Made by a program: the position numbers and the translations under genes. A stretch of 64,000 nucleotides of DNA from contig NZ_CP116413.1 of NCBI RefSeq assembly GCF_030064675.1, positions 1,892,001-1,956,000 on the forward strand. The letters are read 5' to 3'. Of the stretch, positions 6,812 through 27,417 are shown piece by piece. Source of the stretch: Crossiella sp. CA-258035. Its GTDB lineage: Bacteria > Actinomycetota > Actinomycetes > Mycobacteriales > Pseudonocardiaceae. Within the stretch, counting starts at the first letter, position 1, and each line of letters begins with the position of its first letter. Below the pieces are notes generated by a model. It had not been told where the DNA came from. It saw only the letters and a list, made by a program, of their open reading frames with translations, and ran no database searches.

Positions 6812-8463
6812 GTTCGATCACCACGCCGACCAAGCAGGCGAACGCGGCGTCCCGGGCGGCCGGTGGCGCGGCGAAGTGGGCCGACGACCGCTACCACGTG
6901 GCGGCCGGACTGCGCAGGCAGATCAACAAGGTCTTCCCGACGCACTGGTCGTTCATGCTCGGTGAGATCGCGCTGTACAGCTTCATCGTGCTGCTGCTCT
7001 CCGGTGTCTACCTCGCGCTGTTCTTCGACCCCTCGATGGAGGAGGTCAAGTACGCCGGGGTGTTCACCAACCTCAAGGACGTGTGGATGTCGCGGGCCTT
7101 CGAGTCCGCGCTGCAGATCTCCTTCGAGGTGCGCGGCGGCCTGTTCGCCCGCCAGGTGCACCACTGGGCGGCGCTGCTGTTCATGGCCTCGATCGTGGCG
7201 CACATGTTCCGGGTGTTCTTCACCGGCGCGTTCCGCCGCCCGCGCGAAGTCAACTGGATCATCGGCATCCTGCTGTTCGTGCTGGGCATGTTCGAGGGCT
7301 TCACCGGCTACTCGCTGCCCGACGACCTGCTCTCCGGTGTCGGCCTGCGCATCGCCTCCGCGCTGATCCTGACCATCCCGGTGCTGGGCACCTGGGTGCA
7401 CTGGGCCCTCTTCGGCGGCGAGTTCCCCGGCACCGAGATCATCCCGCGGCTCTACACGGTGCACATCCTGTTGCTGCCGGGCATCATCCTCGGCCTGGTC
7501 GCGGTGCACCTGGCGCTGGTCTGGTACCAGAAGCACACCCAGTTCCCGGGTGTCGGCCGCACCGAGAGCAACGTGGTCGGCGTGCGCATCATGCCGGTGT
7601 TCGCGGCCAAGGGCGGTGGCTTCTTCGCCGTCACGGTCGGCGTCATCGCGCTGATGGGCGGGCTCTTCCAGATCAACCCGATCTGGAACTTCGGCCCGTA
7701 CAACGCCGCGCAGGTCTCCGCGGGCAGCCAGCCCGACTGGTACATGGCCTGGACGGACGGCCTGGTCCGGCTGTGGCCCGCCTGGGAGACCTACATCTTC
7801 GGGCACACCATCCCGGCGCCGTTCATCCCGTTCATCGGCAGCATCGGGTTCTGCGTCACCCTGGCGATCCTCTACCCGTGGATCGAGCGCAAGCTGACCA
7901 AGGACGACGCGCACCACAACCTGTTGCAGCGGCCGAGGGACGTGCCGGTCCGCACCAGCCTGGGCATGATGGCCATCACCTTCTTCATGGTGATGATGCT
8001 CTCCGGCTTCAACGACATCATCGCGTACCAGTTCAACATCTCGCTGAACGCGATGACCTGGGCCGGCCGGATCGGGCTGATCATCCTGCCGCCGATCGCC
8101 TACATCCTCACCTACCGGCTCTGCCTCGGCTTGCAGCGGCACGACCGCGAGGTGCTGGAGCACGGGGTGGAGACCGGCATCATCAAGCGCCTGCCGCACG
8201 GCGAGTTCATCGAGATCCACCAGCCGCTGGGCCCGGTGGACGACCACGGCCACCCGGTGCCCCTGGCCTACCAGGGCGCCTCGGTGCCGAAGAAGATGAA
8301 CGCGCTGGGCGCGGCCGGCGAGCCGGTCGCGGGCAGCCTGCTCCGCCCGGACCCGGTGGACGAGACCACCGCGCTCAAGCGCGCCAAGCACGAGGGCGAG
8401 CTGCGCGGCGGCGACAACACCAGGGAGCTGACCGCGGGCAAGCCCGCGGCGCCCAAGGAGTAA
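6808..8463 (+). CDS. qcrB: Cytochrome b subunit of the bcc complex (QcrB)
   Basis: 551 aa. Membrane subunit with two b hemes and the menaquinol oxidation and reduction sites. About eight helices are visible. Paired heme-binding His residues occur in [20 protein letters not shown] and [10 protein letters not shown]...VHLALVW. The quinol-site region ends in a variant of the PEWY motif ([12 protein letters not shown]). The C-terminal 100 residues are a soluble, charged tail typical of actinobacteria. This is the last gene of the ctaE-qcrCAB unit; a strong intrinsic terminator follows 13 nt after its stop. Confidence 0.96.
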
Positions 8464-8476
8464 GCCACAGCAGAAG

Positions 8477-8516
8477 AGGCGCGGCCCGCGATTTTGTTCG
8501 CGGGCCGCGCCTTTTT
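8477..8516 (+). terminator. Intrinsic terminator of the ctaE-qcrCAB operon
   Basis: A perfect 15-bp stem (AGGCGCGGCCCGCGA and its complement) closes a 6-nt loop and runs into TTTTTGTT. This is the clearest rho-independent terminator in the window. Confidence 0.92.
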
Positions 8517-8575
8517 GTTGCTCGGGTGGCGAAGTAGGACACGACCTGTCCGCCTGGGTGGTTAGCGTCCGGATC

Positions 8576-9079
8576 ATGACGAACGAGCGCACCCAGACCC
8601 TGGCCATGCTGGCCGAGACCCGCCAGACCCTGCTGATCACCCTGCGCGGCCTCACCGATGAGCAGGCGGGCGCCAGGAGCACGGTGAGCGAGCTGACCCT
8701 CGGCGGCATCCTGCGCCACCTGATCTCGGGCGAGCGGAACTGGACCCGGGTGCTGCTGACCGGCGACGGCACCCTGCCGGAAGGCATGCTGGACGAGGAC
8801 CAGTACCTGATGCCGGCGGACCGGTCACTGGCCGAGCTGCGCGCGGAGTACCTGGCGGTGGCCAAGATGACCGACACCGCCTTCGCCACCGCGGACCTGG
8901 ACGCCAGGATCCTGCTGCCGCAGACCCCGTGGTCCCCGCCGGAACCCCAGTTCTGGTCGGCCCGGCAGATCCTGCTGCACCTGTTCCGCGAGACCGCCCA
9001 GCACGCCGGTCACGCCGACCTCATCCGCGAGTCCCTGGACGGCGCGAACACCACGGCCCAGCTGGGCGCCGACGAATGA
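8576..9079 (+). CDS. DinB-family protein
   Basis: 167 aa four-helix protein of the DinB/YfiT superfamily, which includes metal-dependent thiol transferases and damage-inducible proteins. Putative metal-ligand histidines occur in GILRHLISGERNW and in HLFRETAQHAGHADLIRE, the two usual positions. The ATG at 8576 is preceded at 7 nt by TAGCGT, so it may be leaderless. The gene ends next to the convergent Lrp/AsnC-type gene with no spacer. Substrate unknown. Confidence 0.82.
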   Translation: MTNERTQTLAMLAETRQTLLITLRGLTDEQAGARSTVSELTLGGILRHLISGERNWTRVLLTGDGTLPEGMLDEDQYLMPADRSLAELRAEYLAVAKMTDTAFATADLDARILLPQTPWSPPEPQFWSARQILLHLFRETAQHAGHADLIRESLDGANTTAQLGADE

Positions 9080-9358
9080 TCAGTCGACGCCGATGTTGAA
9101 CGCGGCCTCGGTGTCGGCCTTGGAGTAGGAGCGGAACGCGATGTGCGTGTCGGTGTTGAGCACCCCGGCCACCTTGCCGATCCGCCCCGGCACCAGCTCG
9201 GCCAGATCCTCGTGCCTGGCCACCTGGACCACCGCGATCAGGTCCACGTCACCGGCGCAGGAGTAGACCTCCAGCACCCCCTCGAAGTCGGCGATGGTCT
9301 GCGCCGCCTCCGGGATGCTGGCGGCGTCGGACTGGATCAGCACGATGGCCTTGATCAC
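9080..9358 (-). CDS. Lrp/AsnC ligand-binding (RAM) domain protein
   Basis: 92 aa. Only the alpha/beta sandwich ligand domain of Lrp/AsnC regulators is present (IKAIVLIQ..., FEGVLEVYSCAGDVDLIAVV); there is no helix-turn-helix. Such single-domain proteins form oligomers and bind amino acids or effectors, sometimes modulating full-length partners. The GTG start has a good AAGGAG site 6 nt upstream. It is convergent with and directly abuts the DinB-like gene. Confidence 0.88.
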   Translation of the reverse strand: MIKAIVLIQSDAASIPEAAQTIADFEGVLEVYSCAGDVDLIAVVQVARHEDLAELVPGRIGKVAGVLNTDTHIAFRSYSKADTEAAFNIGVD

Positions 9359-9431
9359 GGTGTGCTCCTTGGGCGCTGAGGTGGTAGACCGATCGTAGCC
9401 AGCGGGTTCGGGACCCGATCGGTGGACGGGG

Positions 9432-9761: not shown

Positions 9762-9853
9762 AGTACGAGGTCCTGCTCGCGCTAGCCGCTCCGCTGGTGG
9801 CCGCTTCGCTCACGACACCCGCGGCCCGAGCACGCCTCGGCGACTGCCGCTAG
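9758..9853 (+). CDS. Tiny ORF coupled to the DUF6247 gene
   Basis: 31 codons, starting at the ATG that overlaps the upstream stop (ATGA). The product MKYEVLLALAAPLVAASLTT... is hydrophobic in the middle and ends GDCR. It could be a small membrane peptide or the remnant of a second gene of a two-gene module. Its stop overlaps the end of the convergent exonuclease gene. Coding status is uncertain. Confidence 0.3.
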   Translation: MKYEVLLALAAPLVAASLTTPAARARLGDCR

Positions 9854-11583
9854 TCCGCCCCCGCGTACCCGTGCCGCCCCGCCTCCGCCCGCTCCAGCCA
9901 CTCCCGCCACCGCGCCGCCGACCGCGCGGGCGAGCGCCACGGCTCCGCCGCGCGCACCAGCCGCGTCCCCGGCTGCTCGAGCCACCGCAGGATCACCCGC
10001 ACCTCCTCCGCCGGTGCCCCGCGCAGTGGGCCGAGGCCGGGGATCACCGTCTCCGCGGCCAGCACCAGCTGTTCCACCACCGGCATCGGGGCCACGCCGC
10101 GGCGGGCGCCGCCGGCGGCGGCGAGGCGGCCGTGGCGGACGATGGCGAACTGCCAGCCGCCTGCGCCGTCGGGGCGGGCGGCGATGAGCTCGGGGATGGC
10201 GGCCAGTGCGGTCAGGCGCTGGCCGCGGTCCAGGCCCTTGAGCAGGCCGACGATCCGGTCGCGGTGCAGGCCTGCCTGCTCGAAGCGTTCGGTGGTGGCG
10301 TAGGCGCCGAGCTGGTCCAGGAGCAGGCGGACGGGTTCGTCGTCGTGGCCGGCCACCAGTGCCCGCATGGCGGCGACGGCGGGGGCGTAGTCGTCGGTGG
10401 ACTGGTGGCCGGCGCAGGGGGCGGCGCAGCGGTGCAGCTCGGCCAGGATGCAGGGGCGGCCCTGCGGGTTGCGGGCCGGGATGCGCTGGTTGCACTGGCG
10501 CAGCGGGATGGCCTCGTGGATGGCCTCCACCGCCAGGGTGGCCTGGCCGCGGCTGCCGAAGGGGCCCAGCGCGCCCTCGCGGGGGTTGGTCACCACGGAC
10601 AGGCGGGGGAAGGCCTCCTCGGTCAGGGTGATCCACCAGGCGCGGTGCGGCTGGGTGGAGCGGCGGTTGTACCGGGGGCGGTGCGCGGCCAGCAGACGCA
10701 GCTCGCGGACCGCGGCCTCCAGCGGGTGCGCGCACTCGACGTGGTCGACGCGTTCGGCGAAGGCGACCATGTCCCGGATGCGGGAGCGGGTCTCGCCCGC
10801 GGTGAAGTACTGGCCGACCCGGCGGCGCAGGTTGGTCGCGGTGCCCACGTAGAGCACCTCCTCGCGCGGGCCGCGGAAGAGGTACACGCCCGGCCGCTCC
10901 GGCAGTCCGGTGGCCAGGCCGCGTTTGCCGCGCTGGGCCGGGGTGACCTCGGGCAGGTAGCCGAGCAGCTCCTCCAGCGAGTGCACACCCAGCGGCCCGA
11001 GGCGCTCCAGCAGCGCGTGCAGCACGTCCACGGTGGCCTTGGCGTCGTCGAGGGCCCGGTGGTTCGGGGTGACGCTGGCGCCGAAGAGGGCGGCCAGCGC
11101 GGACAGGCGGCAGCTGGGGGCCTCCTCGCGGGAGAGCACCCGGCGGGCCAGCCGGACCGTGCACAGCACCTGCGGCTTCGGCCACTCGTAGTCCAGCTGG
11201 GCCGCGGCGGCCTTGAGGAAGCCGATGTCGAAGGGCGCGTTGTGCGCCACCAGCACGGTTCCCGGGTCCCCGGTGGCGAACTCCAGGAACGCGGGCAGCA
11301 CCTGGGCCAGCTTGGGCGCCTGGCGCACCATCAGCTCGGTGATGCCGGTCAGCGCGACCACCTCCGGCGGGATGCCGCGCTCCGGGTCGACCAGGGTGCC
11401 GAACTCGCCGAGCACCTGGCCGCCGCGCACCTTCACCGCGCCGAACTCGGTGATCATGTCCGAACCCGGCCGCCCGCCGGTGGTCTCCAGGTCCAGCACG
11501 ACGAAGGTCACCTCGTGCAGCGGGGTGCCGAGCTGCTCGAAGGACAGCTGCAGTGGGGTGGCCCTGGGGCTGTGCTGGCTCAT
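9850..11583 (-). CDS. DEDDh exonuclease / GIY-YIG (UvrC-like) fusion protein
   Basis: 577 aa. The N-terminal half is a DnaQ-type 3'-5' exonuclease: FVVLDLETTGG (Asp-Glu), AHNAPFDIGFL, and HRALDDAKAT for the last His-Asp. The middle holds a GIY-YIG nuclease related to UvrC/Cho (GVYLFRGPREEVLYVGTATN, residues about 235-260), followed by a UvrC-like region with Cys residues (CNQRIPA, CAAPCAG). Homolog of M. tuberculosis Rv2191, which lies at the same place next to the bcc genes. Probably acts in DNA repair. The ATG at 11583 sits just before the conserved region; a start 36 codons upstream is possible. Confidence 0.88.
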   Translation of the reverse strand: MSQHSPRATPLQLSFEQLGTPLHEVTFVVLDLETTGGRPGSDMITEFGAVKVRGGQVLGEFGTLVDPERGIPPEVVALTGITELMVRQAPKLAQVLPAFLEFATGDPGTVLVAHNAPFDIGFLKAAAAQLDYEWPKPQVLCTVRLARRVLSREEAPSCRLSALAALFGASVTPNHRALDDAKATVDVLHALLERLGPLGVHSLEELLGYLPEVTPAQRGKRGLATGLPERPGVYLFRGPREEVLYVGTATNLRRRVGQYFTAGETRSRIRDMVAFAERVDHVECAHPLEAAVRELRLLAAHRPRYNRRSTQPHRAWWITLTEEAFPRLSVVTNPREGALGPFGSRGQATLAVEAIHEAIPLRQCNQRIPARNPQGRPCILAELHRCAAPCAGHQSTDDYAPAVAAMRALVAGHDDEPVRLLLDQLGAYATTERFEQAGLHRDRIVGLLKGLDRGQRLTALAAIPELIAARPDGAGGWQFAIVRHGRLAAAGGARRGVAPMPVVEQLVLAAETVIPGLGPLRGAPAEEVRVILRWLEQPGTRLVRAAEPWRSPARSAARWREWLERAEAGRHGYAGAD

Positions 11584-11720
11584 CAGCAGCGACGGTAGGT
11601 CACCCCACTGACAGTTCCGTCGGCAGAACCGGACCACTGCAAAGGTTCTTCCTGGCCTGCGTTCAAGATCCACGGTTACGTTCGGGCTCATCAGCCATGG
11701 TGGGTTCGGAGGTCTTGGGA

Positions 11721-12644
11721 GTGGGCACGCGTAACGGGCGGGTACTGGAGCGGATCAGCCGCACGCTGGCCGCGGGGGAACGCCCCGACAGCTGGCAGGA
11801 CAACCGGATCTCGTACTTCGAGAACATGCGCGCCGAGATGTCGATCCTGAACAAGACCGGCGGCGGCTACTGGCACACCATCGGATGCACCCCGGCCGAG
11901 GCCAAGCTGGTCGAGCCGCTGGTGCTGCACTTCTACTCGCTGGTCTACCAGGGCGACATCATCTACGAGGCGGCCCAGCAGGCCGGTTCCAGCCGGGTCA
12001 CCGACCACAGCTGGAAGACCCGCATGCAGGAGCTGCTGAAGAACCACAACCTCTACGACAGCCGCATCCAGGCCGGGGTGGACAACCTGGAGCGCTACTA
12101 CGTCATGGAGGGCCAGCTGCTGCTGGGCGAGCTGCCGCTGACCGAGGAGGTCATCGAGGAGATCTCGTTCCTGCGCTCCTCGGACCTGCACGTGATGATC
12201 AGGGTGATGGACCGGCTCAAGGGCCGCACCCCGAACGAGCAGTTCTACCAGCTGCTCAAGGCCCCGATGGCGCTGTTCGACATCGGCGACGACTTCGACT
12301 CCTACGAGCGCGACATCGCCGACGCGAGCTACAACTCGCTGCGGCTCTACGTCGCGCTCTACGGCGTCGAGCAGGCCAGGGAGAAGCTGCAGGCGCTGCG
12401 GGAGCGGATCTGGGCCAGGGGCCTGGCCCTCTTCGGCGAGGTGGGCAAGCCGGCGCTGGTGCGCTACCTGACCAGCACCCCGCTGGTGAACCTGAACCTG
12501 CCGGTGGTGCCCGAGCTGCTCGGCACGCTGCCCCGCGCGGTGCTGGCCAAGCTCGCGGTCAGCGCCTACAAGCTGGAGGGCAACGGCGCCGAGGTGATCC
12601 CGGAGCCGATCGCCGAGTCCGGCCCGCTGGTACCGGTGTCCTGA
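11721..12644 (+). CDS. Class I terpene-synthase-fold protein, paralog 1 (motifs retained)
   Basis: 307 aa, mostly helical. Three features recall bacterial class I terpene synthases: VYQGDIIYE in an early helix (possible metal-binding Asp/Glu), FLRSSD (Arg-x-x-Asp, like the diphosphate sensor and linker), and DDFDSYERD about 38 residues later, which aligns with the NSE triad as Asp-Ser-Asp in place of Asn-Ser-Glu. The segment after it, ASYNSLRLYV, matches the helix that follows that triad. A GTG at 11721 is chosen: GGAGG lies 8 nt before it and the N-terminus then aligns with paralog 4. First of four tandem paralogs; 47 nt to the next. No product is assigned. Confidence 0.7.
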   Translation: MGTRNGRVLERISRTLAAGERPDSWQDNRISYFENMRAEMSILNKTGGGYWHTIGCTPAEAKLVEPLVLHFYSLVYQGDIIYEAAQQAGSSRVTDHSWKTRMQELLKNHNLYDSRIQAGVDNLERYYVMEGQLLLGELPLTEEVIEEISFLRSSDLHVMIRVMDRLKGRTPNEQFYQLLKAPMALFDIGDDFDSYERDIADASYNSLRLYVALYGVEQAREKLQALRERIWARGLALFGEVGKPALVRYLTSTPLVNLNLPVVPELLGTLPRAVLAKLAVSAYKLEGNGAEVIPEPIAESGPLVPVS

Positions 12645-12691
12645 CCCAGCGGCTGACGCCACCACCACACACTTCAGCAGGGAGAAAGATC

Positions 12692-13549
12692 GTGACCGAG
12701 GCGGCGGTGCAGCGGCTCAAGGAACGGATGGTTCCCAAGGAGCCGCCAGCGGCCTGGCAGCAGCTGGACATCAGCTACCGGGACAGCATGCGGGCCAACC
12801 GCGCGCTGCTCTGGGACAACTGGGGCGCGCGGTACGCGCTGGGCTTCAGCAGGGGCGAGTTCGAGGTGATCCGCCCGTTCGTCCGGCACTACATCGCGCT
12901 GGCCTACCAGGCGGAGTCGGACCCGGCGCTGGTGGCCGAGCTGGTCACGCTGGCCGAGAGCTACGGCGTGCTCGACGAGCAGGTGCGGGCCGGACTGGCC
13001 GAGCTGTCGGAGTCCCTGGTCACCAGGGACCGGCTGCGGCGCGGCGAGCTGGCCGCGGACGAGAAGGTGATCACCGAGCTGACGCACAGCAGGGTCGCCG
13101 ACGTCCGGGTGCTCAACCGGCTGCTCTACCTGCTGAGGGACCAGCCGGTGGATGAGGAGCACCTCGGCCTGATCGACCCGTGGCTGCGGTTGCAGGACCT
13201 GCGCGGCGACCTCGCCGGCTACCCGGAGGACATCGCCTGGGACCGGTTCAACCTGCTCCGGCTGTTCGTCCAGGCGCACGGCCAGAGCCAGGGCGTGCAC
13301 AAGCTGCGCGCGTACCGGGCCGGCCTGCTGCGCCAGGCGCTGGGCCAGCTGCCCGGCGCGAGCACCGCGGCGCTGCGCAAGCTGCTCACCGCGGCCCTGC
13401 CGGACCTCGGCATCGAGCTGACCGCCTCGGTGGTGGCGCGGCTGCCGCGCGCGGTGCTGCTGCCGCTGCTGACCAATGTCGGGCGCACCTGGGACCTGGC
13501 CACCGCGCCGGTGCCCACGCCGTTGCCCGAAGACGTGAACGCCCGATAG
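12692..13549 (+). CDS. Class I terpene-synthase-fold protein, paralog 2 (degenerate motifs)
   Basis: 285 aa, alignable end to end with paralogs 1 and 4, but the catalytic positions have changed. YQADLAYE is YQAESDPAL here. Arg-x-x-Asp is kept as SRVAD. The NSE-like segment is GDLAGYPED, losing the first Asp and the Ser. It is therefore probably a pseudo-enzyme or a non-catalytic subunit (inference). The GTG at 12692 has a GGGAG site upstream. It sits 47 nt after paralog 1 and most likely shares its transcript. A 132-nt gap with a small inverted repeat follows. Confidence 0.68.
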   Translation: MTEAAVQRLKERMVPKEPPAAWQQLDISYRDSMRANRALLWDNWGARYALGFSRGEFEVIRPFVRHYIALAYQAESDPALVAELVTLAESYGVLDEQVRAGLAELSESLVTRDRLRRGELAADEKVITELTHSRVADVRVLNRLLYLLRDQPVDEEHLGLIDPWLRLQDLRGDLAGYPEDIAWDRFNLLRLFVQAHGQSQGVHKLRAYRAGLLRQALGQLPGASTAALRKLLTAALPDLGIELTASVVARLPRAVLLPLLTNVGRTWDLATAPVPTPLPEDVNAR

Positions 13550-13578
13550 AAATCGCCGAAGGCACCAGCAGATCTGCG

Positions 13579-13615
13579 GGTGGCGAAAAGGGAAGTCTTT
13601 CCTCAAGTTTTCGCC
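13579..13615. promoter_or_regulatory. Inverted repeat upstream of paralog 3
   Basis: GGCGAAAA (13582-13589) and its complement TTTTCGCC (13608-13615) enclose an 18-nt spacer in a locally AT-richer gap. A TAGTTT hexamer at 13645-13650 could be a -10. The arrangement suggests a separate promoter with an operator for paralogs 3 and 4, but the arms are short. Confidence 0.3.
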
Positions 13616-13681
13616 AACCGCGCAGCGGCAACGGCGCACGCTGCTAGTTTCGCCCCAAGTTTCGAGGCGAGGAGTGCACCG

Positions 13682-14482
13682 TTGTCCAAGTGGGGACGGA
13701 AGTCGTTAGAAAAAATCAGGGATAATGTCTACGGTCGGCCCGCACCCGAACTGTGGACGCAGAGCAGCGTCACCTATCAGGACAAGGTGACCTCGACCGC
13801 GCGGCTTTTCTCCTGCGGCGGGCTGCGCTACTGGGAGCTGCTGGGCGCGAGCAGGCTGGAGATCCGGCTGATCCAGCCGATCGCTCACCACTACCTCGCG
13901 CTGTGCAGCCAGGCCCGCCGCACGGAGGTCGCCGACGACTCCTGGAAGAAGGAGATCGAGGCGTTCTTCCGCAGCTACGGCGCCTTCGACAGCGACGTGC
14001 AGAAGTGCCTCTACGACCTCGAGCACGCCCGCACGCTGACCGCCTCGCTGCGCGCGGGCCTGCTCGAACCGACCCCCTCGCTGCTGACCGAGCTGAGCAG
14101 GCTGCGCGCCGGTGAGCTGCTCGCGCTGGTCAAGGTGGTCAGCACGCTGCGCGGGCGGCCGCTGGCCGGGCACGAGCTGGCCGTCTACGAGTCCGCGGTG
14201 CGGCTGGCCCAGCTCGACGGCGACCTCGCCGACTACCCGGCCGACGTGCGCGCCGACCGGTACAACCACTACCGCGCGCTGCTGGCGCTGACCGGCCCGC
14301 AGCGGGCCGCGACCAGGGTGCGCGAGCACCGCCAGGACCTGCTCACCGAGACGCACCAGCGGCTGCGGGCGGGCAGGCTCGGCCGCAGCGGCCACCGCGA
14401 GCTGCGCAGCTGGCTGACCAGGCGGCAGGAGCAGCCGCCGGTGCCACAGGCCATCACCACCACCTCGGTCGCCGCGCGCTGA
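13682..14482 (+). CDS. Class I terpene-synthase-fold protein, paralog 3 (degenerate motifs)
   Basis: 266 aa. The N-terminus SKWGRKSLEKIRDNVYG followed by PELWTQSSVTYQDK aligns with paralog 4 (ALRERILG, PEFWSTTRVTYLES). The early Asp motif is lost (LCSQARRTE), Arg-x-x-Asp is RAGE, and the NSE-like segment is GDLADYPAD. It shares the GDLA.YP.D pattern with paralog 2, so these two form the degenerate pair. The TTG at 13682 is chosen from an AGGAG site 7 nt upstream and from the alignment; a GTG at 13580 would add an unlike leader. The C-terminus is shorter than in the others. Confidence 0.66.
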   Translation: MSKWGRKSLEKIRDNVYGRPAPELWTQSSVTYQDKVTSTARLFSCGGLRYWELLGASRLEIRLIQPIAHHYLALCSQARRTEVADDSWKKEIEAFFRSYGAFDSDVQKCLYDLEHARTLTASLRAGLLEPTPSLLTELSRLRAGELLALVKVVSTLRGRPLAGHELAVYESAVRLAQLDGDLADYPADVRADRYNHYRALLALTGPQRAATRVREHRQDLLTETHQRLRAGRLGRSGHRELRSWLTRRQEQPPVPQAITTTSVAAR

Positions 14483-14493
14483 GCTTTGTAGGC

Positions 14494-14501
14494 AAGCGCT
14501 T
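14494..14501. promoter_or_regulatory. AAGCGCTT palindrome before paralog 4
   Basis: The 58-nt gap between paralogs 3 and 4 contains TTTGTAGGCAAGCGCTTACA, with an 8-bp palindrome and flanking TGTA/TACA. It resembles LacI/GntR-type operator halves, but a single short site is weak evidence. Confidence 0.25.
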
Positions 14502-14540
14502 ACACCTGCCCTGAACCACCAATCCACCTGGGGAAACGCA

Positions 14541-15428
14541 ATGGTGCACGGCACTGCCACCGCCGAGGCGCTCCGCGAGCGCATCCTCGGCCCCGACGCG
14601 CCCGAGTTCTGGTCCACGACCCGGGTCACCTACCTGGAGTCGCTCAAGGCCAGCCGGGTCATGTTCCTCGACGGCTACGACACGATGCTGCACCTGGTCG
14701 GGGTCAGCGAGGACACCGCCAAGGTGTTCGAGCCGCTGGTGATCCACTTCCTGGCCCTGGTCTACCAGGCCGACCTCGCCTACGAGGAGGCCCAGGTCAA
14801 CGGGTCCTTCGAGGTCGACCTCGGCTGGCGGCGGGACATGGAGGACCTGCTGGAGGGCTACGGCCTGCTGGACGGGCAGGCCAGGGCGCGGCTGGACGAC
14901 CTGCAGCGGTACTTCGAGCTGGAGGGGCAGCTGCTGCTCGGCCAGGTCGAGGTCACCGAGGACTCGGTCTACGAGGTGCTCTCCATCCGCTCCTCCGACA
15001 TCGCGCTGGCCATCCCGCTGATGCTCAACCTGGTCGGCGTGGACCCCAGGATCGTGGACGAGCTGGTGCGGGTGAACAAGCCGCTGTACATGCTCTGGGA
15101 GATCGCCGACGACGTGCCCTCCTACGCCAAGGACGTGGCCGCGGGCAGCTACAGCACGATCCGGATGTACGCGAAGATCTTCGGCGCCGAGCGTGGCCGG
15201 GCCAAGCTGGAGGAGTTCCGCGCCCGGCTGGTGGAGCAGGCCTGCGCGGAGTTCGCCAAGGTCTCGGCGACCACGCTGCGGATCTTCGTCAGCTCGCTGG
15301 CGCCTGCCTGGCTGATGCCGGTGGTGCGCCGGATTCCGCGCGGACTGCTGGTGCGAATCCTCCAGTCTTCCATGCGCAAGGACAAGATGAGCAGGCCAGA
15401 ATTACCCACAATGGTCGACGAGAACTGA
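14541..15428 (+). CDS. Class I terpene-synthase-fold protein, paralog 4 (motifs retained)
   Basis: 295 aa and the best-preserved member. It has VYQADLAYEEA, then TEDSVYEVLSIRSSD, which closely resembles the helix of bacterial terpene synthases carrying Arg-x-x-Asp. Forty residues on is ADDVPSYAKDVAAGSYSTI, matching the classical (N/D)D..S...E-type triad with Asp as last ligand. The classical first DDxxD is reduced to Asp...Glu. A role in isoprenoid cyclisation or condensation is inferred; no substrate can be named. ATG at 14541 has a GGGGA site. No P450 or prenyltransferase gene is adjacent. Confidence 0.72.
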   Translation: MVHGTATAEALRERILGPDAPEFWSTTRVTYLESLKASRVMFLDGYDTMLHLVGVSEDTAKVFEPLVIHFLALVYQADLAYEEAQVNGSFEVDLGWRRDMEDLLEGYGLLDGQARARLDDLQRYFELEGQLLLGQVEVTEDSVYEVLSIRSSDIALAIPLMLNLVGVDPRIVDELVRVNKPLYMLWEIADDVPSYAKDVAAGSYSTIRMYAKIFGAERGRAKLEEFRARLVEQACAEFAKVSATTLRIFVSSLAPAWLMPVVRRIPRGLLVRILQSSMRKDKMSRPELPTMVDEN

Positions 15429-15615
15429 GAGATTTACGCAATTCGGTCCGGCGTTGCTTTCCTGGCACAAAACTGTCAGGAGCGCGCACTCAATTGTTGA
15501 ATGGACGTGCGGCGGCCTTGTCGTGGCGCGGGCGTGATCAGGTTGTTGCCGAAGCGTCGCCGAGCGTAACCACGGGCGCGCGCCGAGGGGGTTGACGGCG
15601 GCTAACCTTATGCGG

Positions 15616-16989
15616 GTGTTCCCGTTGCCCGCGCAGACCAGCCACGACCGGCCGGAACCCGACCTGGGTCCGTCCGCTGTGGACGGTGCGCCGCCGTCGG
15701 AGCCCGAGGTGGACTTCGACACCCTGCCGGAGGCGGTTCGGGTGCGGCTCGCCGAGCTCTCCGCCGAGGCGCTGGGCACCATGCCCCAGCTCGACATCCC
15801 GCAGCCGCTGCGGCCGGTGGCCCGGTTCGCCCCGGCCAAGCGGGCCAGGCTGGGCGCCGGGCCGCTGCTGGCCGCGCTGCGCGACTCCGCGGTCTTCCGC
15901 AACGCGGTGGTGCAGTGGTGCCGGGAGCACCGGCCCAGCACCCTGGAGCTCGCGCCCGGCGACCCGGTGGCCACCGCGGCCGCCGCGGTGCTGCTGGCCG
16001 ATCCGGCCGCCCCGCTGCACGTGGAGCTGGTGGCCAGGCGCTCGGTGGACGCGCAGCTGCGGGCCGAGCGGGACGCGGCGCTGTCCCGGCTGGAGCGGCT
16101 GGAGGCCGAGCTGGCCAGGGTGCGCGCCGAGCTGGCCGAGGCCAGGGGCGCGGCCGAGCAGGTCCGGCAGGAGGGCGAGGCCGAGCTGGACCGGCTGCGC
16201 AAGCGCCTGCGCGAGCAGGGCGTGAAGCTGCGCCAGGCCAAGGACGAGGCCGAGGCGGCCCGGTCCGCGCTGAGCAAGGGCCACGGCGAGACCGAGGCGG
16301 TGGTCGCCGCGGTCACCGCCGAACGGGACAAGGAACGGGAGCGGGCCGAGGTGGAGCGGCTCAAGGCCGCCCGCGCCCAGGCCGAGGCCGAGGTGGCCAG
16401 GCAGTCCGCCCGCGAGGCCAGGCAGGCCGACGAGGTCCGGCTGGGCCTGCTGGTGGACACCCTGGCCGGCGCGGTCACCGGGCTGCGCAGGGAGCTGGCC
16501 CTCGGCGGCAGCGGCCCCCGGCCCGCGGACACCGTGCGCGGGGCCACCCCGGCCGCCGGCGCGGTCGGCCGGGTGCAGGACCCGGCCGCGCTGGACCGGC
16601 TGCTCGCGCTGCCCACCGTGCACCTGGTGGTGGACGGCTACAACGTGACCAAGACCGGCTATCCCGAGCTGACCCTCTCCGAGCAACGGGACCGGCTGGT
16701 GCACCAGCTCGCGGTGCTGGCCGCGCGCACCGGGGCCGAGGTCACCCTGGTCTTCGACGGCGCGGGCGTGGTCGCGGTGCCCGCCTCCGTGCCGCGCGGG
16801 GTGCGGGTGCTCTTCAGCGACCCCGGGGTGCTGGCCGACGACGTGATCAGGGCGCTGGTCACCGCCGAGCCGGAAGGCCGCCCGGTGGTGGTGGTGACCT
16901 CCGACCGCGCGGTGGCCGACTCGGTGCGCAGGCGCGGCGCGCACCCGGTGCCCTCGGCCGTGCTGCTGGCCAGGCTGGGCCGGGTGTGA
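15616..16989 (+). CDS. NYN (YacP-like) domain protein with long coiled coil
   Basis: 457 aa. The N-terminal 130 residues are an uncharacterised acidic/helical region. Residues about 135-310 form a long Arg/Glu/Ala coiled coil. The C-terminal 150 residues are a YacP/Rae1-like NYN fold: VVDGYNVTKTGYPELTLSEQ, LVFDGAG and VVVVTSDRAVADSVRRRG, i.e. the acidic positions of PIN/NYN ribonucleases. It probably binds or cuts RNA. The GTG at 15616 lies 7 nt after TAACCT, which fits a leaderless start; an ATG two codons earlier (15610) is too close to that hexamer. Confidence 0.82.
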   Translation: MFPLPAQTSHDRPEPDLGPSAVDGAPPSEPEVDFDTLPEAVRVRLAELSAEALGTMPQLDIPQPLRPVARFAPAKRARLGAGPLLAALRDSAVFRNAVVQWCREHRPSTLELAPGDPVATAAAAVLLADPAAPLHVELVARRSVDAQLRAERDAALSRLERLEAELARVRAELAEARGAAEQVRQEGEAELDRLRKRLREQGVKLRQAKDEAEAARSALSKGHGETEAVVAAVTAERDKERERAEVERLKAARAQAEAEVARQSAREARQADEVRLGLLVDTLAGAVTGLRRELALGGSGPRPADTVRGATPAAGAVGRVQDPAALDRLLALPTVHLVVDGYNVTKTGYPELTLSEQRDRLVHQLAVLAARTGAEVTLVFDGAGVVAVPASVPRGVRVLFSDPGVLADDVIRALVTAEPEGRPVVVVTSDRAVADSVRRRGAHPVPSAVLLARLGRV

Positions 16990-19957: not shown

Positions 19958-21094
19958 GTGCGCCGCACCTTGCTGGTCACCAACGACTTCCCGCCCCGTC
20001 CCGGTGGCATCCCGGCGTACCTGCACTCGCTGGCCACCGCGCTGCCCCCGGACAGCCTGGTCGTCTACGCCCCGGCCTGGGACGGCCCGGTGGGCTCGGC
20101 GGCGGACTTCGACGCCGCGCTGCCGTTCCCGGTGATCCGGCACGCCAGCCCGCTGCTGTTGCCCGAGCCCGAGGTGGTGGCCAGGGCCACCGACATCCTG
20201 CGCGCCGAGGGCTGCACCGCGGTGTGGTTCGGCGCGGCCGCCCCGCTGGGCCTGCTGGCCGCGCGGCTGCGGGTGGCCGGGGCGCGCCGGGTGGTGGCGT
20301 GCAGCCACGGCCACGAGGTCGGCTGGTCCATGTTCCCGGGAGCGCGCTGGGCGCTGCGCCGGATCGGCGCGGCCGCGGACGTGGTCACCTGCGTGAGCCG
20401 GTACACCCGCTCGGCCATCGCCTCCTCCTTCGGCCCGCTGGCCGCGCTGGAACACCTGCCGGCTGGGGTGGACGCCACCTACTTCCGCCCGGACTCCGTT
20501 GCCCGCCAAGAGATCCGCCGCCGCCACCGGCTCGGCGCGGCCCCGGTGGTGCTGTGCGTCTCCCGCCTGGTCCCGCGCAAGGGCCAGGACGCCCTGATCC
20601 GCGCCCTGCCCCGGATCCGGCACCAGGTCCCCGGCGCGAAGCTCCTCCTGGTCGGCGGCGGCCCGTACCTCAAGCGCCTGCGCCGCCTGGCCAGACAGTC
20701 CACTGTGGACGAACACGTGATCTTCACCGGCGCGCTCCCGATGACCGAGGTCCCCGCCTACTACGCCGCCGCCGACGTCTTCGCCATGCCCTGCCGCAAA
20801 CGCGGCTTCGGCCTGGACGTCGAAGGCCACGGCCTGGTCTTCCTGGAGGCCGCGGCCAGCGGGCTGCCGGTGGTGGCCGGGGACTCCGGCGGGGTGCCGG
20901 AGACGGTGCGGGACGGGGTCACCGGCAGCGTGGTGGACGGGCGCTCGGTGCGCGCGGTGGCCGAGTCGGTCGGGCGGCTGCTGGGTGATCCGGAGCTGGC
21001 GGCGAGCATGGGGCGGGCCGGGCGGGAGTGGATGCGCCGGGCCTGGCGCTGGGACGCCGCGGGGGCCCGGCTGGCGGGTTACCTGGACGGCTGA
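19958..21094 (+). CDS. pimB: GT4 mannosyltransferase, PimB'-like
   Basis: 378 aa, two Rossmann domains. The N-terminus RRTLLVTNDFPPRPGGI is characteristic of PimB' (Rv2188c), which adds the second mannose of phosphatidylinositol mannosides from GDP-mannose at the inner membrane. The donor-site region has GHGLVFLEAAASGLPVV (the E-x7-E type motif of GT4) and VSRLVPRKGQD. The GTG is 7 nt after TAAGGT. Its last 16 nt overlap the end of the convergent SARP gene. Position in the conserved gene order supports the PimB' assignment; acceptor specificity is not proven. Confidence 0.9.
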   Translation: MRRTLLVTNDFPPRPGGIPAYLHSLATALPPDSLVVYAPAWDGPVGSAADFDAALPFPVIRHASPLLLPEPEVVARATDILRAEGCTAVWFGAAAPLGLLAARLRVAGARRVVACSHGHEVGWSMFPGARWALRRIGAAADVVTCVSRYTRSAIASSFGPLAALEHLPAGVDATYFRPDSVARQEIRRRHRLGAAPVVLCVSRLVPRKGQDALIRALPRIRHQVPGAKLLLVGGGPYLKRLRRLARQSTVDEHVIFTGALPMTEVPAYYAAADVFAMPCRKRGFGLDVEGHGLVFLEAAASGLPVVAGDSGGVPETVRDGVTGSVVDGRSVRAVAESVGRLLGDPELAASMGRAGREWMRRAWRWDAAGARLAGYLDG

Positions 21095-24000
21095 GCCGCG
21101 TCCAGCTCGGCGAGCAGCGCCAGCGTCTGCCCGGTGCCACCCTCGTAGCCGGTCTCCTGGAAAGCGGTCAGCGCGGCCCGCGCGTGCTGGGCCGCCACCG
21201 CGGTCGCGCCCAGCCGCTGTTCGGCCCTGGCCAGCGCCAGCAGGCCGCGGGCCTCGAAGGTCCGCTGGTGGGTCCGCCGGGCCAGGGCGACCGCCTCGCC
21301 GGCGACCCGCCGGGCCTCGGGCAGTTCGGCCAGGTCGAGGTGGGCCAGGGCGTTGCCGAGCAGCGCCTGCGTCATCTCCTGGAACTGGCCGAGCGGGGCC
21401 GCCTGCTGGTAGGCGGCGGCGAAGCGGTCGGCGGCGAGCCGGGGCCGTCCCCGCCGGTGCTCCGCGATGCCCTCGGCGAGCAGCCCGTAGGCGCTGTTGA
21501 GCCTGCGCCGCACCGGGTACGGGTCGGTCCGCAGCGCGGTGATCTGCCGCTGCGCCTGCTCGTAGTCGCCCAGCTCCGCGTAGGCCTCGGCGATCAGGCC
21601 GGCGCCGACGGACTCCGGGAGCGCGATACCCAGTTTCCAGCGCAGGTCCCGGCAGCGCGACAGGCTGCGCACGGCCAGCTCGGGCCGCCCGAGGCGGACC
21701 TGCTGATCGGCGAGGTCGGCCAGGGCGAGCGTCTCCAGCCCCGCCGCGCCGAGCTCGGCGAAGATCTCGATCGCGGCGGAGACCTGCGCGCCGGACTCGG
21801 CGAGGCGGCCCAGCCGCATGGTCGCCGCGCCGAGGTGGGTCAGCGCCACCCCCTGGACCAGCCGCGAACCCGCCGCGGTGGCGATCCGGTGGGCGCGCTC
21901 GAAGTACACCTGGGACCGGTCCAGCCGGCCGGCGAGGCCGTGGGCGTGGCCGATGCGGATCAGCGCGAGGGCTTCGCCCGCGGGCAGGCCGAGCCGGGTA
22001 AAGACCAGCTTGGCCTCAGCGCCCAGCCGCACACTGGTGCGGTAGTCCCGCCGCCAGAGCAGGATCTCGCTCAGGATGCCCCGCGCGTCCGCGCCCGCCC
22101 GGAGCGCTCCGGCCCGGTCCGCTGCTTCGACGGTGCGCCGGGCGAGGACGACCTGCTCGGCGTGCTGGTACTGGATGTAGAGCACCCGCAGCATCGCGAT
22201 GCCCAGCAGCGCCGCCCGCTCCGGATCGGCGTCGACAGCGCGCCCCTGCACCCCGGTCAGGGTGGCGAACTCGGTGTCGAACCACTCCAGGCCCTCGGCC
22301 GCGGTGCGCGGTCGCGGCCAGGCCCGCTGGGGCGACCAGTCGTCGAGCGCGGTCTCGGTGCGCGGCCCGTACAGCAGGCCGATCAACTGCACCGTGCCGG
22401 TCAGGCAGTGCTCGAGCAGCCGGTGTTCGGCGGCCGCCCGGTCCGCGGGGGCGTCCTCGGCCTGGTGGCGTTCCGCGGCGTAGAGGTGGAGCAGGTCGTG
22501 CGCGCGGTAGCGCCCCGGCCGGTACTCGTCGACCAGGTGCGCGTCGGCCAGTTCGGCCAGTGCGGCCCCGGCCGGTTCCCCGGCGAGCGCCGCCGCGGTC
22601 GGTTCGGTGAGGTCCGAGCCGGGCGTCACGCTCGACAGCCGGAACATCCGGCGGGCCGGGACGGTCAGCGCGCGGTAGGACAGGTCGAAGGCGCGGCGGA
22701 CCACCGTGTCCTGGTCGTCGTCGATGGCCAGTTCGGCGAGCCGGTCGCGGCCGGCCAGGCGGTGCAGGTAGGCGCCGAGGTCGGGGGAGGACAGGCCCGC
22801 GATGTTGGCCGCGGCCACCCGCAGTGCGAGCGGCAGCCGGGCGCACAGGTCAGCCAGCTGGGCGGACTCGGCTGGGTGGGCCTCGACCAGGTCCGGGCCG
22901 AGGATGCGGGTGAGCAGGGTTCGGGCTTCGGCCGGGTTGAGGACGTCCAGGGTGACGCGGCGGCACTCCGGCAGGCCGGGGATGACGCCGCGGCTGGTGA
23001 TCAGGGTGCGGCAGTGCTTGCCGGTGGGCACCAGGGGGGCGACCGTGGTGGCGTCGGCGGCGTTGTCCAGCAGGACCAGGAAGCGGCGGTCGGCCAGCAG
23101 GGACTGGTACAGGCGGGCGCGGCCCGGTTCGTCGGCGGGGATCTCGGACTCGGTGAGGCCGAAGGCGCGCAGGAAGCGGGCCAGCACGGCGAAGGTGGTG
23201 GGTTTCTCCTCGGGGGAGTAGCCGCGCAGGTCGACGTAGAGCTGGCCGTCGGGGTAGCGGTCCTTGAGCAGGTGGCCGATGTGCACGGCCAGCGCGGTCT
23301 TGCCGACGCCGGGCTGGCCGTAGATCACCGTGCAGCCGTGCGGGGCCGTGGTGATGGCCTCGACCAGCTCCGCGCGGCCGACGAAGTCGTTGATGTCCAA
23401 CGGGAGCTGGTGGATGGGCAGGCCGCCGCGCGGGGCAGGGGGCGGGGTGGCGCGGGGGTGCTGTTCGGTCAGGATGGCCTGGTGCTGGGCGCGCAGTTCC
23501 GGGGACGGGCGGATGCCGAGCAGTCTGCTCAGGGTCTCGCTCGCGGTCTGGAAGGCTTGCAGCGCCTCGGCTTGGCGGCCGGAGCCGGCCAGCGCGAGCA
23601 TCAGCTGGGCCCAGTGCCGTTCGCGCAGCGGGTCCTGGGTGGTCAGCTGTTGCAGCTCCGGCACCAGCTCGGCGTGCCCGCCCAGGGCCAGGTCCAGGTC
23701 GATCCGGCGTTCCAGCGCCTGCTGCCGTTCGGCTTCCAGTCCGGCCGCGGTGACCCGCAGGGCGGGGGAGAAGACGTCGGAGAGCGCGGGGCCACGCCAC
23801 AGTGCCAGTGCGGCGCGCAGGGTGGCGCGTTCGGCGTGCGGGTCGCCGCCCGCTTCGGCGACCAGGGCGCGGAAGCGGTGCAGGTCAACGGAATCGGGCT
23901 GGACCTCGGCCAGGTAGCCGGTGGCGGTGGTGCGCAGCACCGGTTCGGGCAGGGTGGCGCGCATGCGGCGGATGTAGGTCTGCAGCGCGTTCTTCGGGTT

Positions 24001-24171
24001 GCGCGGGGGCTGCTCCCACACCTGCTCGGTCAGCTCGGTGATGCTCACCGGCCGCCCTGGGCGCAGCAGCAGCGCGGCCAGCACGGTGCGGTGCTTGCCG
24101 GGCAGCGCGGGCAGGAGCTGTCCATTGTGGACTGTCTCGGTGGGGCCGAGCAGCCGGAACTCCAGTGTCAC
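21079..24171 (-). CDS. SARP/BTAD-NB-ARC-TPR regulator, third gene of the array
   Basis: 1030 aa AfsR/DnrI-type regulator. Order: winged-helix DNA-binding domain (about 1-92), BTAD (about 95-240), NB-ARC ATPase with Walker A GQPGVGKTA (residues 285-293) and Walker B FLVLLDNA, then a long TPR region to the C-terminus. It probably binds direct repeats near -35 boxes and recruits RNA polymerase, with ATP-dependent oligomerisation. The GTG at 24171 overlaps the stop of the gene before it (GTGA), so the two are translationally coupled. Target genes cannot be told from the sequence. Confidence 0.9.
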   Translation of the reverse strand: MTLEFRLLGPTETVHNGQLLPALPGKHRTVLAALLLRPGRPVSITELTEQVWEQPPRNPKNALQTYIRRMRATLPEPVLRTTATGYLAEVQPDSVDLHRFRALVAEAGGDPHAERATLRAALALWRGPALSDVFSPALRVTAAGLEAERQQALERRIDLDLALGGHAELVPELQQLTTQDPLRERHWAQLMLALAGSGRQAEALQAFQTASETLSRLLGIRPSPELRAQHQAILTEQHPRATPPPAPRGGLPIHQLPLDINDFVGRAELVEAITTAPHGCTVIYGQPGVGKTALAVHIGHLLKDRYPDGQLYVDLRGYSPEEKPTTFAVLARFLRAFGLTESEIPADEPGRARLYQSLLADRRFLVLLDNAADATTVAPLVPTGKHCRTLITSRGVIPGLPECRRVTLDVLNPAEARTLLTRILGPDLVEAHPAESAQLADLCARLPLALRVAAANIAGLSSPDLGAYLHRLAGRDRLAELAIDDDQDTVVRRAFDLSYRALTVPARRMFRLSSVTPGSDLTEPTAAALAGEPAGAALAELADAHLVDEYRPGRYRAHDLLHLYAAERHQAEDAPADRAAAEHRLLEHCLTGTVQLIGLLYGPRTETALDDWSPQRAWPRPRTAAEGLEWFDTEFATLTGVQGRAVDADPERAALLGIAMLRVLYIQYQHAEQVVLARRTVEAADRAGALRAGADARGILSEILLWRRDYRTSVRLGAEAKLVFTRLGLPAGEALALIRIGHAHGLAGRLDRSQVYFERAHRIATAAGSRLVQGVALTHLGAATMRLGRLAESGAQVSAAIEIFAELGAAGLETLALADLADQQVRLGRPELAVRSLSRCRDLRWKLGIALPESVGAGLIAEAYAELGDYEQAQRQITALRTDPYPVRRRLNSAYGLLAEGIAEHRRGRPRLAADRFAAAYQQAAPLGQFQEMTQALLGNALAHLDLAELPEARRVAGEAVALARRTHQRTFEARGLLALARAEQRLGATAVAAQHARAALTAFQETGYEGGTGQTLALLAELDAAQPSR

Positions 24172-27100
24172 GGGGTGGCTCCGTGCTCGGCCAGCCTGGC
24201 CCGGACGGCGCTGGTGTCCACCACGCCCATGGTCACGTAGTGTGCCAGCGCCTCTGTCCACAGTGGACGGGCGACACGCGGGCCGTGGGTGGCCAGTCTG
24301 GCCCGGCCCAGCACCTCCAGCGCCTGCGCCTCACCCGGTCGCCTGCCGGTCTCCCGGTGCACCGCGATCGCGGACTCGGCCAGCCCGGCCGCGGTCTCCG
24401 GCTCGCCGAGGTCCAGCCGCACCACGGCCAGCTCGGTGAGCGCGTCGCCGAGCGCGGTGCGCAGGCCCCTGGTGCGGGCCATCTGCTCGCCCTCCTCGGC
24501 GTGTGGCAGCGCCGCGGCCGGGTCGCCCTGGCCCCGGCGCACCGCGGAGACGCCGAGGCAGATCAGCACCGGGACCGCGGGGTGGCCGCCGGAGGTGCTG
24601 GCCAGCTCGCGGGCGGCCCGGTAGTGCCGCAGCGCCTCGGGCCACTCCCGGTGCGCGCGGTGGATGGCCGCGATCAGCGTGCGGGTGGCCGGTTCCAGGC
24701 GGTCCCGCGAGCTGCCCGCCTCGCTGGCCAGCACCCGGTCCAGGTGCACCCGCGCGGCCGCCACATCGCCCCTGGCCAGCTCGAACCGGGCGCGGGCCTC
24801 CTCGACCAGGCGCTGCTGCAACCGGCCCAGGCGCTGGGCCAGCCGCTGCGCCTGGGCCAGCCGCCGGCCGGCCTCGGTGAACTCGCCCACCCCGGCCAGG
24901 GTGTCGGCCAGGTGCACCAGGCACAGCGTCTCCGACTCGTGCGCCTGTAGCCGGTGCGCGATCCGGTAGGCGTGCTCGATCCGGGCGACCGCCTCGGGCA
25001 GCCGGCCGACCGCGACGTAGGCCGAGTGCAGGCCCTGGCTGGCGTAGCCCTCACCCGCCGGGAACCCGGCCTCGGCGCTGAGCCGGATCGCCTCGGTGTA
25101 GCGGGCGATCGCCCGGTGGAACCGGGTGGCGACCTCGTAGGCCATGCCGATGTTGGTCAGCGCCATGGCCTTTCCCGAGCGGGAGCCGACCTCGCGGTAG
25201 CGGCACACCGCCAGCGCGCCGTGCCGCACCGCCTCGGCCACCCGCCCGTACACCGACAGCGCCCCGCTGAGCGCGTTGTGCATGTCGGCCTGCCCGAGGA
25301 CCAGGCCCTGCCGCCGCGCCGAGCGCAGCCCGGCCTCGCAGCTGAGCACCTGCTCCTCGAAGTGCCCGTTGGTCCAGAAGTGGGTGGTCAGCGCGGTGGC
25401 CAGGGCCACGCACAGCTCGTCCGGCTGCTCCTGGGTGGCCAGCACGGCGGCCACCAGGGTGGCGCGTTCGGCGTCCAGCCAGTGCTTGGCGCCGTCGGAG
25501 TCGGTGAAGGGGGCCTGCTCGCCGACGCCCTCGCGCGGGGCCTCGGCGTAGAGCAGCACGGCGGCGTAGCTCGCACAGTCCAGCAGGTAGGCCAGCAGCC
25601 GCTGCCGCGCCTCGGCCACCGCCTCCGGCGGGTCCTCCAGGTCGCGCTGCCTGCCGGTGTAGAGCCGGAGCAGGTCGTGGAACTGGTAGCGGCCCTCGCG
25701 GTGCTCCTGCACCAGGTGCGCGGTGGCCAGCTGGTGCAGCAGCTCGGCCGCCTCCTCCCGGGTGCACCCGGTGAGCACGGCGGCGTGCGCGGCGGTGAAG
25801 TCGGGGCCGGGCACCAGGCCGAGGTCGCGGAAGACCCGTTGCGCGGCAGGGGAAAGCGTGGCGTAGGACAGGTCGAAGGCGCGGTGCACGGCCGCGTCGT
25901 CGTCGCCGTCGATGGCCAGCGCGGCCAGCCGGTTGCCGGTGGCCAGCTCGTGCACGTAGCCGGGCAGGTCCGGCTCGCCGCGGACGGTCAGGTTGGCCGC
26001 GGCGATGCGCAGCGCCAGCGGCAGCCGCGCGCACAGACCGGCCAGCTCGGCGGCGGCCGCGCGGTGCGCCGCCAGGTGTTCCGGGCCGAGGATCGCGCCG
26101 ATCAGGTCCAGGGAGTCCTGTTCCCCCAACGGGTCCAGCCGGATCCGATGACAGTCCACAGTGGACAGCGCGTTGCGGCTGGTGACCAGCGCGGCGCAGC
26201 CGGGGGTGTCCGGCAGCAGCGGCAGCAGCTGGGCCGCCGAGCCCGCGTTGTCCAGCAGCACCAGCACCCGCCGCCCGGCCAGCAGCGCCCGGTAGCGGCT
26301 GATCCGGTCCGCGGTGCGGTAGGGAACCTGGTCGGCGGGCACGCCGAGCGCGCGCAGGAACTGGCCGAGCACCTGGGCGGGGTCGAGCTGCTCGCCGGGG
26401 CAGTAGCCGCGCAGGTTGACGTAGAGCTGGCCGTCCGGGAAGGCCGGGCGCAGCAGGTGCCCGGCGCGCACCGCGAGCGCGGTCTTGCCGATGCCGGGCT
26501 GCCCGCACACCAGCACCCGCTGCTCCCGCTGCCGCGCCAGCAGCTCGCCCAGCTCGGTCAGCTCGGTGTGCCGGCCGGTGAAGTCACTGATGTCGGAGGG
26601 CAGCTGGCAGGCCGGTCGCCACAGCTCGGCCGCCGGTGGCGGCGCGGCCAGCCCAGGGGCGTTGGTCAGCACCGCCTCGTGCGTCCAGCGCAGCCGGGCC
26701 CCCGGCGAGATGCCCAGCTCGGCCTGCAGGGTGGCCGCCGCGGTGGCGTAGACCTGCACCGCCTCGGCCGGGCGCTGGGCACGGTAGAGGGCGACCATCA
26801 GCTGGCTCCAGAACACCTCCCGCACCGGGTGCCGCCGGGTGAGCAGCTGGAGCTCGCCGATCACCGCGTTGTGCTCGCCGCGGTCCAGGTCCAGCTGGAT
26901 CCGCCTGGCCAGCGCGGTCAGCCTGCGCTCCTGCCAGCGGGCCGCCTCCGGTTCGGTGAAGCCCGGCGCGGGCACGTCGGCGAAGGGCTCGCCGTGCCAC
27001 TGGGCCAGCGCCGCGGTCAGCTCGGCGTGCTCCACCTCGGTGTCCTGGGCCTCGTCCGCGCGGCGCAGGTGCGCGGCGAACCGGTGCAGGTCAACGGCTT

Positions 27101-27389: not shown

Positions 27390-27417
27390 GCCACCACCCC
27401 CCTTCCGCTCAACCTGT

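Follow-up and report, generated by a model that had tools for sequence, protein, structure and literature searches.

A candidate noncanonical class I isoprenoid-synthase-like family forms a tandem array rich in predicted pseudoenzymes in Crossiella

The window analysed here, 64,000 nucleotides from the soil actinomycete Crossiella sp. CA-258035, contains a tandem array of four genes. Judged from the motifs of its proteins and from a predicted fold, the array is best read as part of a noncanonical class I isoprenoid-synthase-like family and as rich in pseudoenzymes. We consider it probable that genes 1 and 4 (Table 1) encode enzymes of this family and that genes 2 and 3 encode non-catalytic partners kept by selection. 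This is proposed as the best explanation for the array, the motifs and the pattern of their loss, the low omega values, the genomic position and the neighbourhoods of relatives, all of which were observed, together with the predicted fold; the chemistry, ligands, heteromer and product that it involves are putative.

Table 1. The array genes and the two conserved core genes that border them (positions in the window)
Feature	Position	Strand	Start	Product	Remarks
Left flank, conserved core gene	9850..11691	-	position 11583 or 11691	RNase_T exonuclease + GIY-YIG	array border, outside the array
Gene 1 (type A)	11721..12644	+	GTG	307 aa	intact: YQGDIIYE, R at RSSD, DDFDSYERD
Gene 2 (type C)	12692..13549	+	GTG	285 aa	inactivated: motif 1 missing, GDLAGYPED
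Gene 3 (type D)	13682..14482	+	TTG (inferred)	266 aa	inactivated: motif 1 missing, GDLADYPAD, C-terminus shortened
Gene 4 (type E)	14541..15428	+	ATG	295 aa	intact: YQADLAYE, RSSD, DDVPSYAKD
Right flank, conserved core gene	15592..16989	+		NYN_YacP domain

The four genes follow one another on the same strand between 11721 and 15428, and their proteins align pairwise with 24-34% identity across 250-291 residues. An earlier note on this DNA had claimed four tandem paralogs, and both the mutual alignment and the motifs that it described were confirmed. The start codons were inferred by picking GGAG-like sites upstream, and the type names were taken from the types found in related genomes. A search of gene 4 against its own genome gave five matches at E<=1, namely itself, the three other array genes (E 4.8e-48, 9.1e-24 and 8.4e-17) and one sequence elsewhere (E 0.205). 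Since the intergenic gaps are only 47, 132 and 58 bases, co-transcription of the four genes is plausible. The promoter and terminator scan was uninformative, with no promoter-like site and one terminator-like site against 1.2 expected.

None of the four proteins reached the cut-off of a Pfam or NCBIfam family, and no terpene synthase family was returned for them at E up to 10, in scans where the HMMER filters drop most matches above E ~0.1 and where gene 2 was read from 12749 and gene 3 from 13580. Just two profile rows appeared up to this E value: gene 2 scored 19.2 bits with ARMH5, against a cut-off of 27, and gene 3 scored 9.4 bits with pyruvate carboxylase, against a cut-off of 1114. In PHROGs, gene 2 alone had a row, and this was weak (E 0.14). 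The best sequence match in the PDB was Sat1646 (7e4n), which was weak (E 0.048). The AlphaFold2 models had a pLDDT of 85.5 and a pTM of 0.82 for gene 4, and a pLDDT of 83.5 and a pTM of 0.82 for gene 2. The gene 4 model was aligned with prenyl diphosphate and terpene synthases by VIA-align, a tool that carries a caution on helical bundles, and many of the structural matches listed were prenyl diphosphate synthases. The class I terpene-synthase-like fold that had been proposed for these proteins thus finds support in the predicted structure of gene 4, which matches class I isoprenoid synthases, and gene 2 is predicted to keep the fold; there is weak support from sequence and further support from the terpenoid neighbourhoods of relatives.

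We compared 31 family members, of which 20 were intact, defined by keeping motif 1, and 11 were inactivated. In gene 4 numbering, Y75, D78, E82, Y124, E128, R150, D191, Y195, D198 and G215 were present in all 20 intact members, as was YxxDxxxE. Position 190 was D in 14 of them and T, N, H or V in the rest, and position 194 was S in 16. Because the former residues are invariant and positions 190 and 194 vary among the intact members, the family signature derived from the alignment is YxxDxxxE ... R ... DxxxYxxD. The invariant R150 stands 41 residues ahead of D191; in canonical class I terpene synthases, the diphosphate-sensing Arg lies about 46 residues before the second motif. The NSE-type motif (N,D)DXX(S,T)XXX(E,D) was found in 13 of the 20 intact members, including genes 1 and 4, and in none of the 11 inactivated ones. 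No inactivated member had D78 or E82, and all 11 kept D191. Genes 2 and 3 have lost motif 1 by in-frame shortening, beyond mere mutation, the segment being 13 and 9 residues shorter, respectively, than in gene 4, and types C and D show different shortenings across the motif.

No DDXX(D/E) was found at motif 1, near residue 80, in the 20 intact members; one DDLRE occurred at residue 208 of one member. For want of DDxxD, the family was kept apart from the canonical class I terpene synthases, membership of which was not supported. According to an excerpted report (PMC11234867), BalTS (class IB) and PeuTPS (class ID) were likewise unrecognised from canonical sequences and have a similar fold. The class ID motif RXXKD and the class IB motifs DYLDNLXD and DY(F,L,W)IDXXED were each present in 0/20 intact members. 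By its motifs, the family is outside canonical class I, IB and ID, classes IE and IF (SalTPS, NpsTPS) lying beyond this comparison.

The bacterial class I diterpene synthase Sat1646 has the fold class that is predicted for the array proteins, and its second metal motif, NDLASYERD, is similar to DDFDSYERD of gene 1. The excerpt of its structural report (PMC9814573) describes a first motif, EDWQVD, that binds metal by two acidic residues four apart, Asp88 and Asp92, and names these two together with Asn223, Asp224, Ser227, Arg230 and Asp231 as the Mg2+ ligands. This ligand pattern fits D78/E82 and D191/D198 when it is mapped by analogy onto the array proteins. On the other hand, the array proteins have no significant full-length match to Sat1646 and no DDxxD, and they are encoded in tandem with inactivated paralogues.

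The relatives outside Crossiella give an indication of the substrate. One family member follows dxs, ispG, ispH and an FAD monooxygenase (G245), and another follows ispG, ispH and an FAD monooxygenase (G077). A third (G358, L067 8386-16929) lies directly beside a Pyr4-like cyclase on the same strand, the cyclase match having E 3.7e-23 over the full frame and 3.8e-6 for a shorter piece; the opposite strand carries a polyprenyl synthase, three Rieske oxygenases and a PPDK-like enzyme. Because these three relatives sit in terpenoid settings, we argue that the family would act on prenyl diphosphates. The settings of the L069 and G566 members were non-terpenoid as far as they were scanned. The diverged L069 member (8067-9044, minus strand) lies beside a beta-lactamase-family gene, an Rce1-like protease, a nitroreductase and YcaO, in what looks like a peptide-modification cluster. 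By eye, this protein and the L068 member (8348-9391, minus strand) have an N-terminal hydrophobic stretch, possibly a membrane anchor. The remote G566 member (L136 9362-10360, minus strand), from what is probably a mycobacterium, is near AMP-binding, enoyl-CoA hydratase and PE/PGRS genes. The Crossiella array had no terpenoid gene among its direct neighbours, and a polyprenyl synthase is located in the window about 40 kb from it. Polyprenyl synthase matches (PF00348) numbered 7 in the window genome (G000), 7 in G188, 11 in G185, 12 in G186 and 7 in G187.

These settings bear on the main rival chemistry, in which the intact members would be class I-fold prenyltransferases, for example with an aromatic or indole acceptor, instead of cyclases, and the inactivated ones would be partners or carriers. 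We regard it as unlikely, although relatives lie beside an FAD monooxygenase, or beside a Pyr4-like cyclase with a polyprenyl synthase, and the prenyl diphosphate synthases among the listed structural matches of the gene 4 model point the same way. In the excerpt of a report on the zig cluster (PMC13307353), Pyr4-like cyclases in bacteria are known from meroterpenoid pathways, and the cluster encodes a separate prenyltransferase, though a triterpenoid pathway is also named there. Against this chemistry, the part of the neighbourhoods that was scanned held no recognisable gene for making an acceptor, and in 13 of the 20 intact members the second motif is closer to the NSE type than to a second DDxxD.

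A search with gene 4 across 390 genomes of the taxonomic family gave matches at E<=0.001 in 8, five of them Crossiella and three others. Among the former, G188 carries the species label of the window genome, and G185 and G186 carry its genus label. The array occupies the same place in all five Crossiella genomes, with 4 members in the window genome, 4 in G188, 6 in G185, 6 in G187 and 5 in G186. Types C and D are adjacent and present in 5/5 of these genomes, types A and E in four each, and types B and F in three each. The earlier note had named a lack of co-occurrence as a refutation, and this fails, as the types of genes 2 and 3 do co-occur side by side. The number of members is not fixed and varies from 4 to 6. 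At E<=0.001, profile A3 found two genomes among 397 of the order, the window genome and G566, and the window genome alone among 396 of the phylum sample; the family, order and phylum samples overlap, and only the top candidates of each genome were scored. No plasmid matched gene 4 at E<=0.01.

The weak partial matches in 18 of 26 genomes (E 7.1e-5 to 1.0e-3, in frames of 679-759 aa) were set aside as spurious because the one that was inspected, L041, has an in-frame product that looks by eye like a DinG-type helicase.

The two flanking genes locate the array in the chromosome. A search with the NYN protein matched 24 of 31 relatives, 20 of them non-Crossiella, and at 16 of these 20 loci the exonuclease directly neighbours the NYN gene. 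No array member was found at these 16 loci at E<=1e-4 within the flank of <=1.5 kb examined; of the remaining four loci, two start right where a contig ends, and in the other two no exonuclease was seen. As the exonuclease and NYN genes are adjacent without the array in other genera, it most likely came to lie, in the Crossiella lineage, between two core genes that are normally neighbours. Among the open-licence PMC papers listed, we found no report of the family, the Crossiella array or such a heteromeric terpene cyclase.

The maximum-likelihood tree required three changes between intact and inactivated states, a number forced by well-supported branches, and none of 500 label shuffles needed as few. 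Three changes could also mean that the label was gained once and lost twice, and long branches leave some deep placements unsure; because regaining a deleted motif is unlikely, three separate inactivations of motif 1 are the simplest reading. Type D is inactivated in all five Crossiella genomes, and on this pattern its inactivation predates their divergence; its G186 orthologue is highly diverged. Type C lost motif 1 in four genomes and kept it in G186, where the orthologue has motif 1 and RSSD, with V and D at positions 190 and 194, which places the type C inactivation after the G186 split. Type A kept motif 1 in two genomes and lost it in two, the G185/G187 lineage, by substitution (YQGERGYAAAR, with DQDLGSHQRG in G187 and DQDLDSHQRG in G185). 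The description of an active-like outer pair and a degenerate inner pair is thus correct for the window genome but does not extend across species, where the states differ.

The inactivated members are under purifying selection (ML omega 0.06-0.15). The ML values were 0.098, 0.123 and 0.152 for the type C pairs, 0.124, 0.057 and 0.143 for the type D pairs and 0.116 for the inactivated type A pair of G187 and G185, compared with 0.107, 0.126 and 0.147 for the intact type E pairs, 0.116 for type B, 0.137 for type F, 0.035 for the intact A pair and 0.223 for the A pair across the inactivation. The flanks gave 0.048 (NYN) and 0.070 (exonuclease). NG86 values were higher (C 0.29, 0.31 and 0.48; D 0.37, 0.13 and 0.41; E 0.30, 0.35 and 0.64; A across the inactivation 0.86), probably due to NG86 ignoring the G+C bias, and their bootstrap upper limits were below 1 for all six C and D pairs. 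By either estimate, the inactivated types C and D are constrained about as much as the intact type E, in a comparison, without a formal test, of pairs that are few and not independent. That selection preserves the proteins even after the loss of motif 1 suggests a function for the dead copies.

It could be held instead that genes 2 and 3 are functionless duplicates in decay towards pseudogenes, as the variable copy number (4, 4, 6, 6 and 5), the recurrent inactivation, the shortened C-terminus of the gene 3 type and the highly diverged G186 orthologue might indicate. We find this improbable: no internal stop codon was present in the 28 places matched by gene 4 or in the coding sequences used for omega, the omega of the inactivated pairs is close to that of the intact genes, and types C and D occur in all five Crossiella genomes searched whereas the other types are missing from some. 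The stepwise loss raised in the earlier note is supported by the tree with its three changes, although the purifying selection on the inactivated copies speaks against plain decay. We favour functional over decaying copies because motif 1 was lost recurrently, gene 2 has a predicted fold, omega is low and the C-D pair is kept in 5/5 genomes.

In the mechanism that we propose, the chains of genes 1 and 4 would bind Mg2+ through D78 and E82 on one helix and through D191 and D198 on another, with position 190 or 194 contributing to this second site in many members. R150 would hold the diphosphate of a prenyl diphosphate, which the intact chains would ionise, either releasing a terpene as cyclases, the more likely course, or transferring the prenyl group. 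Genes 2 and 3 would be unable to catalyse this reaction, the first metal motif being gone, and would most likely assemble with the intact chains as non-catalytic partners, like the small subunits of heteromeric prenyl diphosphate synthases. A heteromer of intact and inactivated chains is favoured by analogy with mint GPPS LSU/SSU, HexA/HexB and HepS/HepT, in which two unlike chains make up each enzyme. In the excerpt of a review of these enzymes (PMC7839719), the mint GPPS small subunit is without DDXXD (or DXXXD), and HexB bears both aspartate-rich motifs in HexA/HexB. The heteromeric prenyl diphosphate synthases elongate chains, whereas the array family has other motifs and more paralogues in a single array, and its complex is putative. 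That the inactivated proteins kept the pocket and act in ligand binding, transport or regulation independently of the intact chains is quite improbable: the predicted fold of gene 2 (pTM 0.82) and D191 in 11/11 inactivated members would allow it, but types C and D always lie inside an array with intact paralogues in the five genomes, and none was found elsewhere among the matched places, the 18 marginal matches being left out.

A bolder form of the partner model is put forward only tentatively, in which the family would be a new terpene synthase class, marked by the signature given above and working in Crossiella as a hetero-oligomeric, multi-subunit cyclase, the pseudo-synthase chains being obligate subunits and setting the product, and the catalytic and dead roles swapping between species.

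A family that is unlisted by terpene synthase profiles, in a genus rich in terpenoid genes, with 6-15 canonical terpene synthase domain matches per genome, would widen the targets of genome mining. The array further amounts to a natural experiment on a small scale, in which motif 1 was, on the simplest reading, lost three times at one locus with purifying selection retained, and for this reason the role of dead terpene-synthase-like chains is directly testable in it. The matches to the domain PF19086 numbered 6 in the window genome, 9 in G188, 15 in G185, 13 in G186 and 11 in G187, and some proteins hold two. The window contains another tandem set at 21082-30600 on the minus strand, consisting of three consecutive regulators of 1030-1073 aa with BTAD, NB-ARC and TPR domains.
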